A stretch of 32,906 nt of DNA from Desulfobacterales bacterium (GTDB lineage Bacteria > Desulfobacterota > Desulfobacteria > Desulfobacterales > Desulfatibacillaceae): contig JAGVAW010000094.1 in the NCBI GenBank assembly GCA_020060085.1, positions 1 through 32,906 on the forward strand, in the 5' to 3' direction. Made by a program: the position numbers and the translations under genes. The stretch's first letter is position 1. Every line of letters starts with the position of its first letter. Shown here one piece after another: positions 1,568-16,645 of the stretch. A model generated the notes under the pieces. It was not told the origin of the DNA and did not search any database. It saw only the letters and a list, made by a program, of their open reading frames with translations.

Positions 1568-3076
1568 ATGAAAAAATCCCTCATTTTTGCCCTGGCCCTT
1601 TTTTGCTTCTCCCTGCCTGCCCTTGCAGGCACGGCCTCCCTTTCCGACTCCACCATGCAATGCCTTGACTGCCACATGGACATTCATCCGGGCATTTATG
1701 AAGACTGGCTGAGCAGCCGCCACGCAATCACCACGCCGGAGGCAGCAGGAAAAGCAAAGGGCCTTGGCCGCAAGGTTTCTTCAGAAAATGTTCCTTCCTC
1801 TCTTGCCCAAAATGCGGTTGGTTGCGCGGAATGCCACACCGCCAACCCCGGCAACCATGCAGACAGCTTTTATCACAACGGATTTGAGGTGCACACGGTT
1901 GTAACGCCGGAAAACTGCGCCATCTGCCATGTTGAGGAAAGAAGCCAGTTTTCGGAAAACATAATGGCCCATGCCTATGGCAACCTTATGAACAACCCGG
2001 TTTACGGCCTGCTCATCAACGCGACAATAGGCAAACCCCAGGTCACGGAAAAGGGCCTTGTTTTCGGCGAGCCGGATTCGGCAACCCTGGAGCAGAGCTG
2101 CCTTTACTGCCACGGCACAAAGCTATTGGTTACAGGGACAAAAACGCGGGATACGATACTTGGCGAAATGGAGTTTGCACAAATTGAGGGCTGGCCCAAC
2201 CAGGGAGTGGGCCGCATAAACCCGGACAACAGCATGGGCTCCTGCTCTGCCTGCCACCCGCGGCACAGCTTTTCCATGGCAGCAGCCCGCAAGCCATCCA
2301 CCTGCAAGCAGTGCCACATAGGGCCGGATGTCCCCTCATTCAAGGTCTATGACGCAAGCAAGCACGGCAACATCTATTCTGCCCAGGGCAGCAAATGGAA
2401 CTTTGACGCCACCCCCTGGGTGATTGGCGAGCATTTTACGGCTCCCACCTGTGCAGCCTGCCACATGAGCCTTCTGGCAGACGGGAGCGGCCAAAAGGTG
2501 GTGGAAAGAACCCACCGGATGAACGACAGGCTTTCCCACAGGCTTTTTGGGGTTATCTATGCCCATCCCCACCCCCAAAGCCCGGATGTCTCCACCCTTA
2601 AAAACAGCGATGGCCTGCCCCTGCCCGTTGACTTTGCAGGCAACTTTGCAAAAGAAGGCCTCATTGACCAGAAGGAGCAGCAGAAGCGAACGCAGAAGAT
2701 GAAAGCCTCCTGCATGAACTGCCATTCCGGCACATGGGTGGAAAAGCACTTTGAAAATCTGGCCCATGCCATCAAGGAAACCAACCGGGCCACCCTTGCT
2801 GCCACGCAACTGATGCAGCAGGCCTGGGACAAGGGCCTTTGCCAGGGTGTGGCCCAGGGTGCAAACCCCTTTGATGAAGGCCTGGAAAGAATGTGGACCT
2901 TGACTTGGCTCTTTTACGCCAACTCCGCCAGACTTGCAGCAGCAATGGCAGGGGGCGGGGATTATGGCACCTTTGCCAATGGCCGTTACCAGCTTTCCCA
3001 AACCTTATCGGAAATGCAGGACAGGATAAAAATGCTTGAAGGCACCCAGGGGGCATCTACCCGGAAAAAAAGGTAA
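1568..3076 (+). CDS. Octaheme c-type cytochrome, hydroxylamine oxidoreductase (HAO)-like
   Basis: 502 aa with signal peptide (MKKSLIFALALFCFSLPALA); eight CxxCH motifs (CLDCH, CAECH, CAICH, CLYCH, CSACH, CKQCH, CAACH, CMNCH); HAO-like spacing CSACHPRHSFSMAAARKPSTCKQCHIGPD...SKHGNIY. Confidence 0.85.
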   Translation: MKKSLIFALALFCFSLPALAGTASLSDSTMQCLDCHMDIHPGIYEDWLSSRHAITTPEAAGKAKGLGRKVSSENVPSSLAQNAVGCAECHTANPGNHADSFYHNGFEVHTVVTPENCAICHVEERSQFSENIMAHAYGNLMNNPVYGLLINATIGKPQVTEKGLVFGEPDSATLEQSCLYCHGTKLLVTGTKTRDTILGEMEFAQIEGWPNQGVGRINPDNSMGSCSACHPRHSFSMAAARKPSTCKQCHIGPDVPSFKVYDASKHGNIYSAQGSKWNFDATPWVIGEHFTAPTCAACHMSLLADGSGQKVVERTHRMNDRLSHRLFGVIYAHPHPQSPDVSTLKNSDGLPLPVDFAGNFAKEGLIDQKEQQKRTQKMKASCMNCHSGTWVEKHFENLAHAIKETNRATLAATQLMQQAWDKGLCQGVAQGANPFDEGLERMWTLTWLFYANSARLAAAMAGGGDYGTFANGRYQLSQTLSEMQDRIKMLEGTQGASTRKKR

Positions 3077-4655: not shown

Positions 4656-5834
4656 TTAGCTTTCCCACGAGCGGGTAGTTAAGACAACGCTTTTTGCATC
4701 GGTTTTAGGCGTGGTGAACTGCCCGAATATCTGAAAAAAGGCGTCCGGCTCAATGGCTGCCTCCGGGGGCAGAACCCCCGGCCCGGCAAGCTTGCCCTGG
4801 GCGGCAAGAATTGCGCCTATGGCAAGTGGTATGCCCGTGGCAGGGCCCATTCCGCCTAAAGGGCCTGCTGCCAAAGCGCAGCCTACAGATGCGGGCTTTC
4901 CGTCCTTTTGGCCCTGGGCCAGGGCAAAGAGGGGCGGCAGAAATGTGGGACCTTTCTTTTTTAAAAGCTCACCAAGCAAAGAAGCCTCGCGCTTACCCAG
5001 GTTGGGGCCTTCCACCCGCTCGGAAAACCATGCAGCCCCCTCGTGGCTCACAAGGCCCTTGTCCACCAGAAATGTAAGCGCCTTGAGCGCCAGAATTATT
5101 GGAGATGGCGCAACCATTACATTGACGCTTGTTTTGATGCCGCTCAAAAAACGGGGCAGGGTCACAGGTTCCGGGTGGCCTATGGTGCAGACAATGTGGG
5201 AGCCAAAGCCCGGATAGTTTATTTTAAGCTTTTGGATGGGTTTTTCATCCACAAAAACGCCTTCGCGAAATACCCTTATGGTGCCCGTGAGCTGTTGCAT
5301 GCCGTGAATTGTGGCAGCAGACGGAGTTTTTTCGATTTTTTCGGGCAGGGCCTCGGAAAGCTGCCAGCCGGTGATGAGCGTACTTGCGCCCGGAAGAAGG
5401 GAAACAGCCTTGCGGGCAAGGAGATTGGAAATGCCCGGCGTTGCTCCAAGGCCCAGGATTGCGGTTATGCCTGCATCCTTTGCCTTTTCATGTCGAGATA
5501 GCATCTCTATGGTCGGCTCCCAGTCATCGCACACATCAAGATAATGCTTTTTTGCTGCAATTGCAGCATCCAGCACAAGAGGCCCGAAGCGGAAATAGGG
5601 GCCGACTGTGTTAATCACAATGTCTGCATTTTCAATGGCCCGTCCCAGGGCATCGGCATCTGTTATATCCAAAGCCTGCCAGGATGCTCGTGCCCCCAGG
5701 GTTTGGGCAAAGGCCTTTGCCCTGTCGCCGTCCCGGTCTGCAATTGCAACAGATTCCACAACCGGGTCTGCCAGAAGCGTCTTTGAGGCGTGGCGGCCTA
5801 TTTCACCGCATCCGCCTAGGGCAAGAATCTTCAT
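4656..5834 (-). CDS. Saccharopine dehydrogenase-family NAD(P)-binding oxidoreductase
   Basis: 392 aa; N-terminal MKILALGGCGEIGRHASKTLLADPVVESVAIADRD Rossmann motif and INTVGPYFRFGPLVLDAAIAAKKHYLDVCDD typical of the family. Confidence 0.85.
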   Translation of the reverse strand: MKILALGGCGEIGRHASKTLLADPVVESVAIADRDGDRAKAFAQTLGARASWQALDITDADALGRAIENADIVINTVGPYFRFGPLVLDAAIAAKKHYLDVCDDWEPTIEMLSRHEKAKDAGITAILGLGATPGISNLLARKAVSLLPGASTLITGWQLSEALPEKIEKTPSAATIHGMQQLTGTIRVFREGVFVDEKPIQKLKINYPGFGSHIVCTIGHPEPVTLPRFLSGIKTSVNVMVAPSPIILALKALTFLVDKGLVSHEGAAWFSERVEGPNLGKREASLLGELLKKKGPTFLPPLFALAQGQKDGKPASVGCALAAGPLGGMGPATGIPLAIGAILAAQGKLAGPGVLPPEAAIEPDAFFQIFGQFTTPKTDAKSVVLTTRSWES

Positions 5835-5963: not shown

Positions 5964-8900
5964 TTAAGTGGGTTCGCTTTCCATATCCTGCCTGGCTTTT
6001 TCCATCAACTCCTGGGCGGAAACGGGGTAGAGAGAATCAAACACGGCAAACCCAATGCGTATATCCACTTCCATGTCATCCTGGTTCATGCGCTCGAACA
6101 GGCTTTCGCACCTTCTGCGCAGAATCAGGGCTTCCTTGGCATCACTTTCAACAAGGAGCAGGGCGAAGCAGCGGGAGGTGAGGCGGCAGGCCGTATCGTA
6201 GCGCCTCAAGTTATTCTGGAGCATGACAGTCATCTGCGCCAGAATTCTGTCTCCTGCGGAAAAACCGTGTTTCTGGTTGATGCTGTCCAGGTTGGTTGCC
6301 TCCACAAGGGCCAGGGTAAGCTTGCCCTGGTGCCGGACACAGCGGGCCACCTCGTTTTCCAGTGCCTGCACAAAGGTAAGCGGGCTTAAAACGCCGGTTA
6401 CATCATCCCTGAAGCCGTTTTCGGCAAGATTTTGGGTTGCCTTTACAAGCCGCTGGGTAAGGATGGACATAAGGTTGTTCACAAAGCGGTAGGCAGTTGG
6501 CGGATATAGCCATTGCAGGCGTTTTATGCTTCTTGGGCTTATTGCCAGAAGGTCTGCGGTTGTGGAGGCCATGTATATGCAGCCTTCACTTATCTGGCAG
6601 CCCGAACCAAGACCTCCTATTACATCTCCGGCCCTCAAGGTTGCCACCCTTACCCTGTCGTGCTCTGGTCGCTCGATGTCCGAATGCCGGTACTGGGCCA
6701 CTTCTCCGCTTATCACGGCAAAAAGATACTGGTCATGATCATCATCTGGAAAAAGCATCTGCCCCGGCTCCATGCGATGGAGGGAGCCTGCCGCCAGAAG
6801 CGCGCGAATCTGCATTCTTCCCATTCCGTTGAAAAGCGGTATGCGCCGGGCCTGATCCCTGCCTATGCGGACATTGAGCAGATCCCAGGCTGTCACAAGC
6901 TCCACATGGGTCATCAGGGCTGGCAGAAGAAAGATGTCGCCGATAAGGGCCATCGTCATTGTCAGCATCATAAGGGCGCCAAAGGTGGCGGTGGGCGTGA
7001 ATGTGGAGAATGTGAGGATGAAAAAGCCCAGAACCAGGGTGATGCTTGTAAGAACGATGGGCCGGCCTACTGTGCGCACGGAATCGGCAAGGGCCCTTCT
7101 CCGGTCCAGATCCTTTCTGAACTCCCGATTATAGCGCACCATGTAATGGATGGCGTCATCCAGGGCCAGGCCTATGGCAATGGAGGCAATCATGACCGTG
7201 TTCATGGAAAGCTCAATGTCTGCCCATCCCATCACCCCGAACACGACAATCAAAGGAAAACAGTTGGGTATGAGAGTTACAAAGCCGGCTTTCACGGAAA
7301 CGAACAGGGCAAGCATCATCAACAGAACCAGAACCAGCACAACAGACATACTTTCAAGCAGGTTCTTGGTGATGACGCGGTTGCTGTGGGCGACAATGGT
7401 GCCCATGGAGGCCATCTGCACAGTAGCCGTGTCTCCGTAGAACTGCCGGCTCCATTCCAGAATCTGGGCTTCGGTTTCCAGCCACTCATAACCGCTGGAG
7501 ATGTGCATCATCATGAGGATAGCCGCCTTGGAGCGGTCCTCATTCATGAAGCGCCGGCTCATGTCCGGGCCTAAAAACATCTTGTAGAGGTTTAAAATGT
7601 TGCCAAGCTCCGCAGGGTCCTGGGGCAGGGCATAGAAAGTGGGTATGTAGTTGTTGATGGAGTAATAGATGAGCTGGACATAATTTGCAAAGCTCAAGGT
7701 CTTGTCTATGCCCGGAATGGATTCCAGATAGTCCTGAAGCTCCAGCAGCTTTGCAATGTTGTCCGGGTCCGAAAAATAATCTGCTGTCGGCCCGCCCACA
7801 ACCACATTTACGGGAAAGGCTCCGGCCATGTCCTGGTAAACATCGTGGAAATGCTGGGTAACCGGCTCGCTTTCCCGAAAATACCTTGTTGTGTCCGCAT
7901 CAATACGAAGCTGGGATATGCCCCATAATCCCAGGATTGTCAGGATGGCTGCCACTGTAAAAAGGGCCTTCTGGTGATTTAAATTAACCCTGACAACGAA
8001 TTTCAGCAGCCTGTCAAGAATGTCGCCCGATCGGGGGGCATTCTTCGGGTGCATCAGGGGCATAAGTGCCAGGATGGCCGGAAAAAGCGTAAACAGCAGA
8101 AGCATGAAGGAGAGCATTCCCACGCAGGCTGGGATGGCAAAGTCGAGGATGGTCTGGTTGGAGTTGAACACCAGGGCTGAAAGGCCTACAAGGGTGGTCC
8201 CAACAGCCAGGGCTGTTGGCAGACGCATATGACGAAGGGTGAATGCCGCAGCCTCCTTTGAATCCGTTGCCGTTCGGGCCAGATGGACATATTCAGAAAC
8301 AACATGAAGACAATAGGCAGTACCCACGGTCATAAGAAAGATGGGCACCACAAGTGTCATGGCAGAAACAGGGGTGTCTGTCCAGGCCATGACCCCAAAG
8401 GTCCAGATGAGGGTTACCAGCACGCAGGAAACGGGGGCTATAACAAGGCGTATGGATCCAAAAAGGAAAATCAGCGTAAGCACCATAACAGCAAAGGTTA
8501 TGGGCGGCAGCAGGGAGAAATCGCGCTTGATGGAGTTTAGCAGGGCCTGGGACACAAGGGGCATACCTATCTGGTAAACCTCAAGGTCGCCGGAATGGTT
8601 TTTTAATATCCACTCCACTGCCGCAACAATGGCCTCCTCCTGGCGGATGTCATCCAGAAGCATTGTAAAGGCTGTGGATTTCTTGTCTGAAGAAAAGACA
8701 TTTCTGTGGAAAAGGGTTACAGGGGTAACGATTTCTTCAAACTGGGCAAGGCTCCATTCATCCAGCAGGTCCATGTCCTGCTTTATTCCCGGAAGGCTTA
8801 TGACCTTGGAAACGCCCGGAACCTGCGAAAGCTTCTGGGCCATCACCTCAAGCTGGGAAAAAATCTCCGGGTCAAATACATTTTTGCCCTTGGCAATTAT

Positions 8901-9215
8901 CTGTATGTATTCCCCGCCGCCAAATTCCTCCAAAAAGGCTTCATAAACTGCAACAGACTCCAGGTCAGGCACCACAACTTCATAGGAGGTTGCATTAACG
9001 GTTAGGCTTGGAAGGCGGACCGCCATAATGACGGTGAAGCATAGGATTAAGGCAATGGTCAGCCAGGGCCGGGCAACAATGCGCTCCAGCCAGAAACGGT
9101 AATCAGATATGCCAAAGTTTTTTGGGGCGGTATTGGTCAATGCCTTATCAGTCCTCCAAACAACTGTCCATGCTTTTTGCCTGGCGCAAAAAACCGTTAC
9201 CCAAAAGGGCTTCAA
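5964..9215 (-). CDS. RND/MMPL-family transporter fused to a cNMP-binding-like domain and a degenerate GGDEF domain
   Basis: 1083 aa; two RND halves with TM bundles (e.g. FAVMVLTLIFLFGSIRLVIAPVSCVLVTLIWTFGVMAWT; GLALDDAIHYMVRYNREF); Crp-like IPLFNGMGRMQIRALLAAGSLHRMEPGQMLFPDDDHDQYLFAVISGEV; C-terminal GGDEF-like fold with TSRCF in place of GGDEF. Confidence 0.9.
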   Translation of the reverse strand: MKPFWVTVFCARQKAWTVVWRTDKALTNTAPKNFGISDYRFWLERIVARPWLTIALILCFTVIMAVRLPSLTVNATSYEVVVPDLESVAVYEAFLEEFGGGEYIQIIAKGKNVFDPEIFSQLEVMAQKLSQVPGVSKVISLPGIKQDMDLLDEWSLAQFEEIVTPVTLFHRNVFSSDKKSTAFTMLLDDIRQEEAIVAAVEWILKNHSGDLEVYQIGMPLVSQALLNSIKRDFSLLPPITFAVMVLTLIFLFGSIRLVIAPVSCVLVTLIWTFGVMAWTDTPVSAMTLVVPIFLMTVGTAYCLHVVSEYVHLARTATDSKEAAAFTLRHMRLPTALAVGTTLVGLSALVFNSNQTILDFAIPACVGMLSFMLLLFTLFPAILALMPLMHPKNAPRSGDILDRLLKFVVRVNLNHQKALFTVAAILTILGLWGISQLRIDADTTRYFRESEPVTQHFHDVYQDMAGAFPVNVVVGGPTADYFSDPDNIAKLLELQDYLESIPGIDKTLSFANYVQLIYYSINNYIPTFYALPQDPAELGNILNLYKMFLGPDMSRRFMNEDRSKAAILMMMHISSGYEWLETEAQILEWSRQFYGDTATVQMASMGTIVAHSNRVITKNLLESMSVVLVLVLLMMLALFVSVKAGFVTLIPNCFPLIVVFGVMGWADIELSMNTVMIASIAIGLALDDAIHYMVRYNREFRKDLDRRRALADSVRTVGRPIVLTSITLVLGFFILTFSTFTPTATFGALMMLTMTMALIGDIFLLPALMTHVELVTAWDLLNVRIGRDQARRIPLFNGMGRMQIRALLAAGSLHRMEPGQMLFPDDDHDQYLFAVISGEVAQYRHSDIERPEHDRVRVATLRAGDVIGGLGSGCQISEGCIYMASTTADLLAISPRSIKRLQWLYPPTAYRFVNNLMSILTQRLVKATQNLAENGFRDDVTGVLSPLTFVQALENEVARCVRHQGKLTLALVEATNLDSINQKHGFSAGDRILAQMTVMLQNNLRRYDTACRLTSRCFALLLVESDAKEALILRRRCESLFERMNQDDMEVDIRIGFAVFDSLYPVSAQELMEKARQDMESEPT

Positions 9216-9288: not shown

Positions 9289-10362
9289 TCAAGGCCGGGC
9301 TGATGCCCGGTATTCTTCAAGAAGCTCCAGCACCTTATCAAGAAGGTCTTTTGGATACAGCCTTCCGGAAAGCTGATCCCAAAGGGGCCGGGTCAACTGG
9401 CGCATCATATCCAGCTCATTCTTTTCCAGGGCTGTTTCCTGGATGCCGTATTTTTGCAGCGCAATCATAAAGCGCCGGTTTTCCCTTCGCATGGCATCTG
9501 CAAAGTCCCTTTCCATGCTATCCTTGATCTGGAAATACTCGCCCTTGTACTTTTCCGGCAGTTTTTGCCAGTCTTCCGAATTTACGACAACAACCGCGGG
9601 CGAATAGCGCAGATGAACCGCATTCACGAACTTGAAGCGCATGAACATCTGGGTTCCCACCACCATGATTACCGGCCCTATCATGGAGTCAGCCAGATTC
9701 TGCTCAATGGTTGCGCCCATCTGGACGCTGCGCACAGGCAGAGGCTTTGCCCCCAGAGCCTTGAAGGTCTCCTCCTCAATGGCTCCATGCCATGTCATGA
9801 AGCGGGCCTTGCGGAAGTGCTCCAGCTTGGTCATGGGATAGGTGGCGGAATAAACCTGATCAAAGCCCTGATCTATCCATGCAAAAAGAAAAACATGGCT
9901 TTTGGCCATGTATTGCTGAAAAGCATCCCGCAGACGGGACTTTACAAAATCCACCTCTTCATAGCTGTTAAAAAGAAAGGGCAGTTCAAGGATGGCCATT
10001 TCAGGGCACAGCAGGGTGGCTCCAAAACCCGTGAGGCCTGCGCCATTAAGGTGCCCGAAGCGCATCTTGCGGATGATGTCAGTATCATCGCCCATTATGC
10101 CGCCCCAGAAAACCTTTACGGATATTTTGCCATCGCTCACTCTGTCCACAATCGGCAGGACAAGGTGCTCCAACTGTCTGGCATAACCTGCGCCCTTGGG
10201 TACCACGGTGGCAAACTGCCACTCAAGCTTTTCGGAGGAAGTGTCCGGCGTGGCTCTTGCTTCCTGCTCCGCACCCAGGGCAGGGCAGGCAAGCAAAAGA
10301 AGGAGCGCACAGGCTGTGGCAGCCAAAAAGTGCGCCCTGGAAAAAGGCTGAAAAAAGGTCAT
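9289..10362 (-). CDS. TRAP transporter DctP-type substrate-binding protein
   Basis: 357 aa with signal peptide; WQFATVVPKGAGYARQLEHLVLPIVDRVSDGKISVKVFWGGIMGDDTDIIRKMRFGHLNGAGLTGFG pattern typical of DctP. Confidence 0.85.
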   Translation of the reverse strand: MTFFQPFSRAHFLAATACALLLLLACPALGAEQEARATPDTSSEKLEWQFATVVPKGAGYARQLEHLVLPIVDRVSDGKISVKVFWGGIMGDDTDIIRKMRFGHLNGAGLTGFGATLLCPEMAILELPFLFNSYEEVDFVKSRLRDAFQQYMAKSHVFLFAWIDQGFDQVYSATYPMTKLEHFRKARFMTWHGAIEEETFKALGAKPLPVRSVQMGATIEQNLADSMIGPVIMVVGTQMFMRFKFVNAVHLRYSPAVVVVNSEDWQKLPEKYKGEYFQIKDSMERDFADAMRRENRRFMIALQKYGIQETALEKNELDMMRQLTRPLWDQLSGRLYPKDLLDKVLELLEEYRASARP

Positions 10363-15646: not shown

Positions 15647-16645
15647 TTGCTCAAAAATTGCGCAAAAGTGGTGCTGCAACCACCCCCTTGCAGCAGACTC
15701 CTTGCAGGTAAGGCCATAAGGACATACATCTTGGATCTTGAAAACCCCCGGCTTGACGCAGATATTTTAAATTCCCTTTTTGACGGCCTTTATGTTGTTG
15801 ATTCTTCCAGAAGAATCCGCTTCTGGAGCAAGGGGGCCGAGCGCATTACAGGTTTTTTGGCCCATGAGGTTTTGGGAAGCTCATGTGCCGACAACATACT
15901 TGTCCATACCGATGCCTTTGGCAAAAGCCTTTGCGGTGAGGCCTGCCCCTTGAGCTATTCCCTTGCCAGCGGCAGCGAAAGGGAGTCTGTTGCTTTTGCG
16001 CGCCACAAAAAAGGGTACAGGGTTGCGGTGAGGATTCGCACAAGGCCCTTAAAGGACGGGCAGGGCAGGGTGATAGGCGCTGTGGAGATTTTCAACGACC
16101 ACCCTGAAGCCAAATCTGCCATGCAGGTTATTGCCGATCTGGAGAAGATGGCCCTTGTTGACATCCTGACCCAGCTTCCCAACAGGCGCTACCTGGAAGC
16201 CCAGATTGAGGCGGCCATAAACCGTTTTCAGCGCCTTGACATTCCCTTTGGCCTTCTTGTGATGGATCTGGACGGTTTCAAAACTGTGAACGATCGTGCA
16301 GGGCATGCAGCAGGGGACAGGATGCTCAAAACAGTTGCGCGCACCCTGGCAAACTCCATTCGCTCTTTTGACATGGTGGGCCGCTGGGGCGGAGACGAGT
16401 TCCTTGCCCTGGTTGCAGCAGACAGCCCCAATGCCCTCAAGCAGGTGGGAGAGCGATACAGGGCGCTTGTGGAGGCCACCATAACCCGCATTGCACAGGT
16501 GGATATCCACATCACCATTTCCGTGGGTGGCGCCCTCTGCCGTCATAACGACACGGCAGCCTCAATTTTTGCCCGCGCGGATGCCCTTCTTTACAAATGC
16601 AAAAACTCCGGCAAAAACTGCGTGCTTGTGGATGACGGGCAGTAA
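15647..16645 (+). CDS. PAS-GGDEF diguanylate cyclase
   Basis: 332 aa; PAS region (ILNSLFDGLYVVDSSRRIRFWSKGAERITGF); GGDEF core VDILTQLPNRRYLEAQI...DLDGFKTVNDRAGHAAGD...RSFDMVGRWGGDEFLALV, with intact GGDEF and RxxD I-site; probable TTG start. Confidence 0.9.
   Translation: MLKNCAKVVLQPPPCSRLLAGKAIRTYILDLENPRLDADILNSLFDGLYVVDSSRRIRFWSKGAERITGFLAHEVLGSSCADNILVHTDAFGKSLCGEACPLSYSLASGSERESVAFARHKKGYRVAVRIRTRPLKDGQGRVIGAVEIFNDHPEAKSAMQVIADLEKMALVDILTQLPNRRYLEAQIEAAINRFQRLDIPFGLLVMDLDGFKTVNDRAGHAAGDRMLKTVARTLANSIRSFDMVGRWGGDEFLALVAADSPNALKQVGERYRALVEATITRIAQVDIHITISVGGALCRHNDTAASIFARADALLYKCKNSGKNCVLVDDGQ

Follow-up and report, generated by a model that had tools for sequence, protein, structure and literature searches.

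The 32,906-nt window, i.e. the whole stretch of DNA that was analysed, carries a gene whose product joins an RND-type membrane core to a CRP-like domain and a degenerate GGDEF domain. The gene, its parts and the neighbours that bear on its interpretation are as follows:

1568–3076, plus strand: multi-haem c-type cytochrome (Pfam Multi-haem_cyto, Cytochrome_C7)
4656–5834, minus strand: saccharopine-dehydrogenase-like oxidoreductase, downstream of the fusion gene (Pfam 2.9e-18), a neighbour otherwise seen only in the nearest relative, L038
5964–9215, minus strand: RND/MMPL, CRP-like and degenerate GGDEF fusion, a confirmed ORF of 1083 aa with a TTG start
5979–6410, minus strand: degenerate GGDEF domain, residues 936–1079 (Pfam 3.9e-19, well over the cut-off; AlphaFold2 model; Foldseek)
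6111–6113, minus strand: R1035, secondary I-site arginine, equivalent in role to PelD R402
6165–6179, minus strand: TSRCF, residues 1013–1017, replacing the GGDEF catalytic motif
6195–6206, minus strand: I-site RxxD, R1004-R-Y-D1007
6516–6848, minus strand: CRP/cNMP-like domain, about residues 790–900 (sub-threshold in Pfam; CRP-type in Foldseek)
6558–6629, minus strand: degenerate phosphate-binding cassette, GDVIGGLGSGCQISEGCIYMASTT, residues 863–886
6906–9083, minus strand: RND (HAE3/MMPL-type) membrane core, about residues 45–770 (Pfam MMPL twice, 1.1e-32)
7143–7169, minus strand: TM10 motif LALDDAIHY, residues 683–691, acidic pair retained
8304–8327, minus strand: TM4 motif VGTAYCLH, residues 297–304, acidic residue absent
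9140: alternative TTG start of the fusion, residue 26
9289–10362, minus strand: TRAP-type periplasmic solute-binding protein (DctP), directly upstream of the fusion gene (Pfam DctP 9e-30; NF037995 9.5e-49)
15647–16645, plus strand: PAS-GGDEF protein with an intact GGDEF motif and an RSFD I-site

The real start may be the TTG at residue 26, as the first 36 residues of the fusion protein show neither conservation nor a confident model. The host assembly, from a bacterium of the sulfate-reducer type, comprises 3.36 Mb in 349 contigs and is ~92% complete; statements on this genome as a whole are based on genome searches, and a contig scan covered five close relatives. The nearest named relative, the Desulfatibacillaceae MAG L038, encodes a protein that is 92% identical, followed by Desulfatibacillum proteins at 48–49%, and a plasmid search returned distant relatives only. 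In this low-coverage MAG (L038/L009), the orthologue is broken by an in-frame stop near residue 246, reflecting either an assembly error or a broken gene.

The membrane core has the two MMPL repeats and the fold of the MMPL/HAE3 branch of the RND superfamily: it matches TIGR00921 at 2.4e-64, under the family cut-off, and a full-length model of the fusion protein (pLDDT 81) retrieves MmpL4, MmpL5, MmpL3, HpnN and NPC1 in Foldseek searches. RND/MMPL proteins are expected to carry an acid in TM4 as well as in TM10, of which the window protein has lost the former. The first acidic residue of TM10 (D) is kept in 63/63 cores of the GGDEF class, to which the window protein belongs, and of a sister class carrying a histidine kinase (HK class), whereas D or E at the TM4 site—a residue common in other MMPLs—occurs in none of these 63. 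Since the TM4 acid is missing, proton-driven transport by the core appears doubtful. Around the genes of the close family, the conserved neighbours are hydrogenase genes, with no lipid genes among them; the core may serve transport or sensing.

The arrangement of MMPL, CRP and GGDEF domains recurs in 44 homologues from many families, collected by genome searches of relatives, the order and the phylum as sequences spanning the same domain order, which is therefore far beyond chance. An AlphaFold2 model of the C-terminal 310 aa, built with these 44 homologues, reached a pLDDT of 82 and matched c-di-GMP-bound GGDEF domains in Foldseek (5euh, TMt 0.80, rmsd 2.0 Å; 3ign, TMt 0.81). The succession of two RND halves, a Crp-type domain and a GGDEF-like fold, as laid out in the preliminary description of this DNA, is thus confirmed by Pfam, AlphaFold and Foldseek alike, including the structural check of the GGDEF fold that it had called for.

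Within this fold, the protein reads LRRYD-TACRL-TSRCF, placing RRYD exactly five residues upstream of TSRCF, as had been described. Neither GG(D/E)EF nor the metal-binding Asp of an active diguanylate cyclase is present. The GGDEF motif is likewise intact in 0/44 homologues, in which the site mostly reads D-x-x-x-F; the metal-site Asp is left in 5/44, and most carry E, K, R or G there. RxxD, in turn, is missing in only two of the 44, and R1004 and D1007 form the two lowest-entropy, i.e. most conserved, of the 146 GGDEF-domain columns. The predicted pattern of a retained RxxD next to a lost GGDEF motif therefore holds across the homologues (42/44 and 0/44, respectively). Part of the conservation in this region could be structural, because R1011 and D937 are conserved almost as strongly. 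As a control, RxxD was counted in the true catalytic GGDEF domains of ten related genomes (47 motif matches, two of them spurious) and found in 37 of 45. Given this frequency, RxxD in one protein would by itself be weak evidence for a receptor; its retention after catalytic loss appears to be the stronger argument. Coincidence in a single sequence was considered and, the high background rate notwithstanding, is ruled out by the conservation.

The spacing of R, D (+3) and R (+31) is that of R359, D362 and R390 in PleD, R1035 falling where PleD has R390. The domain thus combines a GGDEF fold and a lost catalytic motif with the I-site R and D and the secondary R, the hallmarks of a PelD-type receptor. 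When R363, D366 and R395 of Bacillus cereus PelD were replaced by alanine, c-di-GMP binding was no longer detectable by ITC (PMC7112168). PelD, which controls Pel secretion, is also a membrane-linked control protein whose degenerate GGDEF domain retains the I-site R and D and the downstream R (PMC7112168). It differs in having a GAF domain, whereas in the window protein the GGDEF domain follows an RND core and a CRP-like domain on one chain, and no exopolysaccharide genes were seen near the window gene. The PelD-like logic proposed earlier hence gains support from an active site that is dead in 44/44, an RxxD kept in 42/44 and a third I-site Arg, R1035, kept in 40/44 sequences.

For the domain between core and GGDEF, Pfam reports cNMP_binding at residues 814–898 with an E-value of 1.9e-4, below its cut-off, and the C-terminal model matches the CRP-type proteins GlxR and CAP in Foldseek, in keeping with a CRP fold. 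The preliminary description had noted that this domain lacks a phosphate-binding cassette and had doubted its ligand. The cassette is indeed missing in the window protein, but the pattern matches in 34/44 homologues and its textbook form, GEMGLLRxxPRSATV, is intact in most, which makes the absence a derived loss in this lineage. A second ligand, also raised at the time, is likely for the family, although its site has been lost here. Counted by pattern, cassette and I-site occur together in 32/44 homologues, the I-site only in 10/44 (eight of them the window's clade) and the cassette only in 2/44. The latter two are paralogues in two Desulfatibacillum genomes whose DctP-linked copies show the opposite loss (L043 and L044 versus L010 and L011): one pair keeps the cassette without RxxD, the other the reverse. 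Such reciprocal loss suggests that the tail holds two separable ligand sites. Four GGDEF-class loci have a gene for a class III cyclase nearby, the scanned example of which also encodes a CHASE2 domain, and the cyclic nucleotide could come from this cyclase.

In the window, the fusion gene is separated from dctP by 73 nt on the same strand, and this pairing recurs across the Desulfatibacillaceae. No DctQ or DctM gene lies beside dctP; a DctM match was found on another contig of the genome. A probable source of c-di-GMP is the nearby PAS-GGDEF protein, and the host genome does contain c-di-GMP machinery, with 7 GGDEF and 7 PilZ matches in the searches. Unlike many of its relatives (see below), the gene does not reside in a hydrogenase locus, the window's clade being flanked by DctP instead. 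Searches of the ~92%-complete genome yielded no full HynA-type large subunit, only a divergent 490-aa hydrogenase large-subunit-like protein encoded elsewhere; that the window's own copy has a hydrogenase role is thus unsupported.

The C-terminal module is not a fixed part of this core. In a sister set, the proteins are 40–43% identical up to about residue 782 and then continue into HisKA and HATPase_c in place of CRP and GGDEF, constituting complete histidine kinases (L045, L046 and L129–L146, e.g. L139:5388–8378), whose genes usually lie next to those for a hydrogenase, a PAS kinase and a response regulator. A more distant set (24–31% identity) ends in the CRP-like domain only, and its examined members adjoin LolA-like outer-membrane sorting proteins. 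Judged by these sequences, the core family carries exchangeable signalling modules: CRP alone, CRP with GGDEF, or a histidine kinase. In a tree of the core, the CRP-only set falls outside, while the kinase and GGDEF classes interleave; as the deep nodes are weakly supported, we make no claim on the number and direction of the swaps.

Outside the window's family, hydrogenase genes accompany 19/34 GGDEF-class loci (13/15 families), compared to 18/20 HK-class loci (12/12 families) and 1/19 CRP-only loci, where linkage means HynA, HynB, the protease, HypD, HypE or HypF in the fetched flanks and many negatives are short contigs. The linked enzymes are of the periplasmic [NiFe(Se)] type. In genomes G016, G024, G118 and G225, the linked HynA is the sole PF00374 match, and three of these four hynA genes contain an in-frame TGA, suggestive of selenocysteine and thus of [NiFeSe] hydrogenases linked to RND genes. 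The in-frame TGA was seen at G016:C163:88820–90307, G024:C5:34909–36399 and G118:C169:85005–86492 as well as in G010:C53 and G048:C192.

How might such a protein work? We favour a c-di-GMP-gated RND protein with a PelD-like dead GGDEF receptor as the best and a reasonably probable reading. The starting points are the observed domain order, catalytic motif loss, I-site conservation, module exchange and synteny; c-di-GMP binding, gating and any cargo of the core, the direction of signalling and the role of DctP we infer. The RND part would sit in the inner membrane, with the cytoplasmic tail as a ligand-binding control module whose catalytically dead GGDEF domain would, like PelD, bind c-di-GMP at the retained inhibitory site (R1004, D1007 and R1035) and in this state alter the activity of the core. 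The ancestral tail may have received two inputs, a cyclic nucleotide at the CRP-like domain and c-di-GMP at the GGDEF domain, the first of which the window's lineage would have lost, and on the periplasmic side a ligand is probably delivered by DctP. The preliminary interpretation, which had proposed a c-di-GMP-gated exporter of lipid or hydrophobic cargo, is partly supported as a whole, with gating of the RND part plausible and a lipid cargo finding no backing in the conserved gene neighbourhood of the close family. Extended to the family, the swappable modules—a cNMP and c-di-GMP receptor or a kinase—might connect hydrogen or redox metabolism in the periplasm of Desulfobacterota with second messengers and phosphorelay, with the window protein a branch re-tasked to a DctP-presented ligand and c-di-GMP its sole remaining cytoplasmic input; we put this forward tentatively, at somewhat less than even chances.

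The main rival to the gated pump is a transceptor, suggested by the fusions to a kinase and by a TM4 without its acid. Here, the RND core and its periplasmic binding protein would act as a sensor and the C-terminal module as an output or tunable relay, recruiting partners or reporting the ligand, with c-di-GMP possibly tuning the response. A core joined to an output domain (HisKA and HATPase_c, usually with response regulators and PAS kinases nearby) suits a sensor no less than a gated pump, the TM4 acid is absent in all 63 cores, and in two lineages the gene next to the core encodes a binding protein (DctP in one, Peripla_BP_6 in the other, L132). Yet no output domain is recognisable in the GGDEF class, whose two domains are of ligand-binding types, and the TM10 acidic residues are kept in essentially all proteins. 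We regard the transceptor as rather unlikely. The high RxxD background in related genomes could also mean that the GGDEF and CRP domains are relics serving structure or dimerisation, with RxxD, R1011 and D937 kept for folding and no nucleotide bound. GGDEF domains at large commonly have the Asp of RxxD and the Arg preceding the motif, and the CRP domain is already without its cassette in the window's clade, both of which would suit a relic. Such a relic would be at odds with an I-site Arg and a third I-site Arg that are more conserved than nearly all domain positions despite lost catalysis, and with a cassette that is intact in most relatives and paralogues that lose the two sites reciprocally; we consider it improbable. 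An unusual cyclase with a non-canonical motif is barely conceivable: a few degenerate motifs do stay active, such as the AGDEF of VCA0965 (PMC3974145), but TSRCF has lost both glycines, the Asp and the Glu, the metal Asp is replaced in most homologues, and we reject this reading on motif loss.

Degenerate-GGDEF receptors are already known as a kind; for the RND scaffold, the open-access literature searched offered no description. The same literature yielded neither a description of RND/MMPL proteins joined to GGDEF, cNMP, histidine kinase or hydrogenase nor a case of direct post-translational c-di-GMP control of an RND protein. The window family shares the two-halved RND fold of MmpL3/4/5 and HpnN but differs from these HAE3/MMPL proteins in its C-terminal CRP and GGDEF or histidine-kinase module, its lost TM4 acid and its hydrogenase or DctP context. 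Closer in build are the MMPL-cNMP proteins beside LolA-like genes (Thalassospira L218, L048 and L049), 24–31% identical and with both RND core and CRP-like domain, which nevertheless lack GGDEF, have a LolA-like neighbour and are hydrogenase-linked in the above 1/19 loci only. A transporter with a C-terminal nucleotide-binding regulatory domain has been described (PMC10710835), albeit from another superfamily and without a GGDEF receptor. If gating by c-di-GMP is true, a transporter superfamily would join the list of c-di-GMP effectors. The natural series of modules on one membrane core (CRP, CRP with GGDEF, kinase) could make the direction of signalling in RND proteins readable, and it puts a name to a part of hydrogenase loci that has gone unstudied, in anaerobes that matter for the turnover of hydrogen. 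Swapped tails beside hydrogenase clusters hint at a previously unnoticed link of signals to periplasmic metabolism.

To our knowledge, an RND-kinase fusion is not part of the described HoxBC-type H2-sensing system. HK-class loci, however, often contain a second hydrogenase without a Tat signal and mostly without the C-terminal extension, beside the PAS kinase and response regulator, an arrangement resembling the Ralstonia HoxBC regulatory hydrogenase system (PMC5665086). By this analogy it is a candidate H2-sensing hydrogenase in Desulfobacterota; such a system is absent at the window. Its large and small subunits are encoded at L131:1791–4246, with equivalents in L045, L046, L129 and L133–L141. 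Finally, an ApbE flavin transferase gene lies directly upstream of the RND gene in L095, L102, L103, L105–L107, L112, L118, L132 and L146, where it usually follows hypE, and ETF genes are often found downstream.
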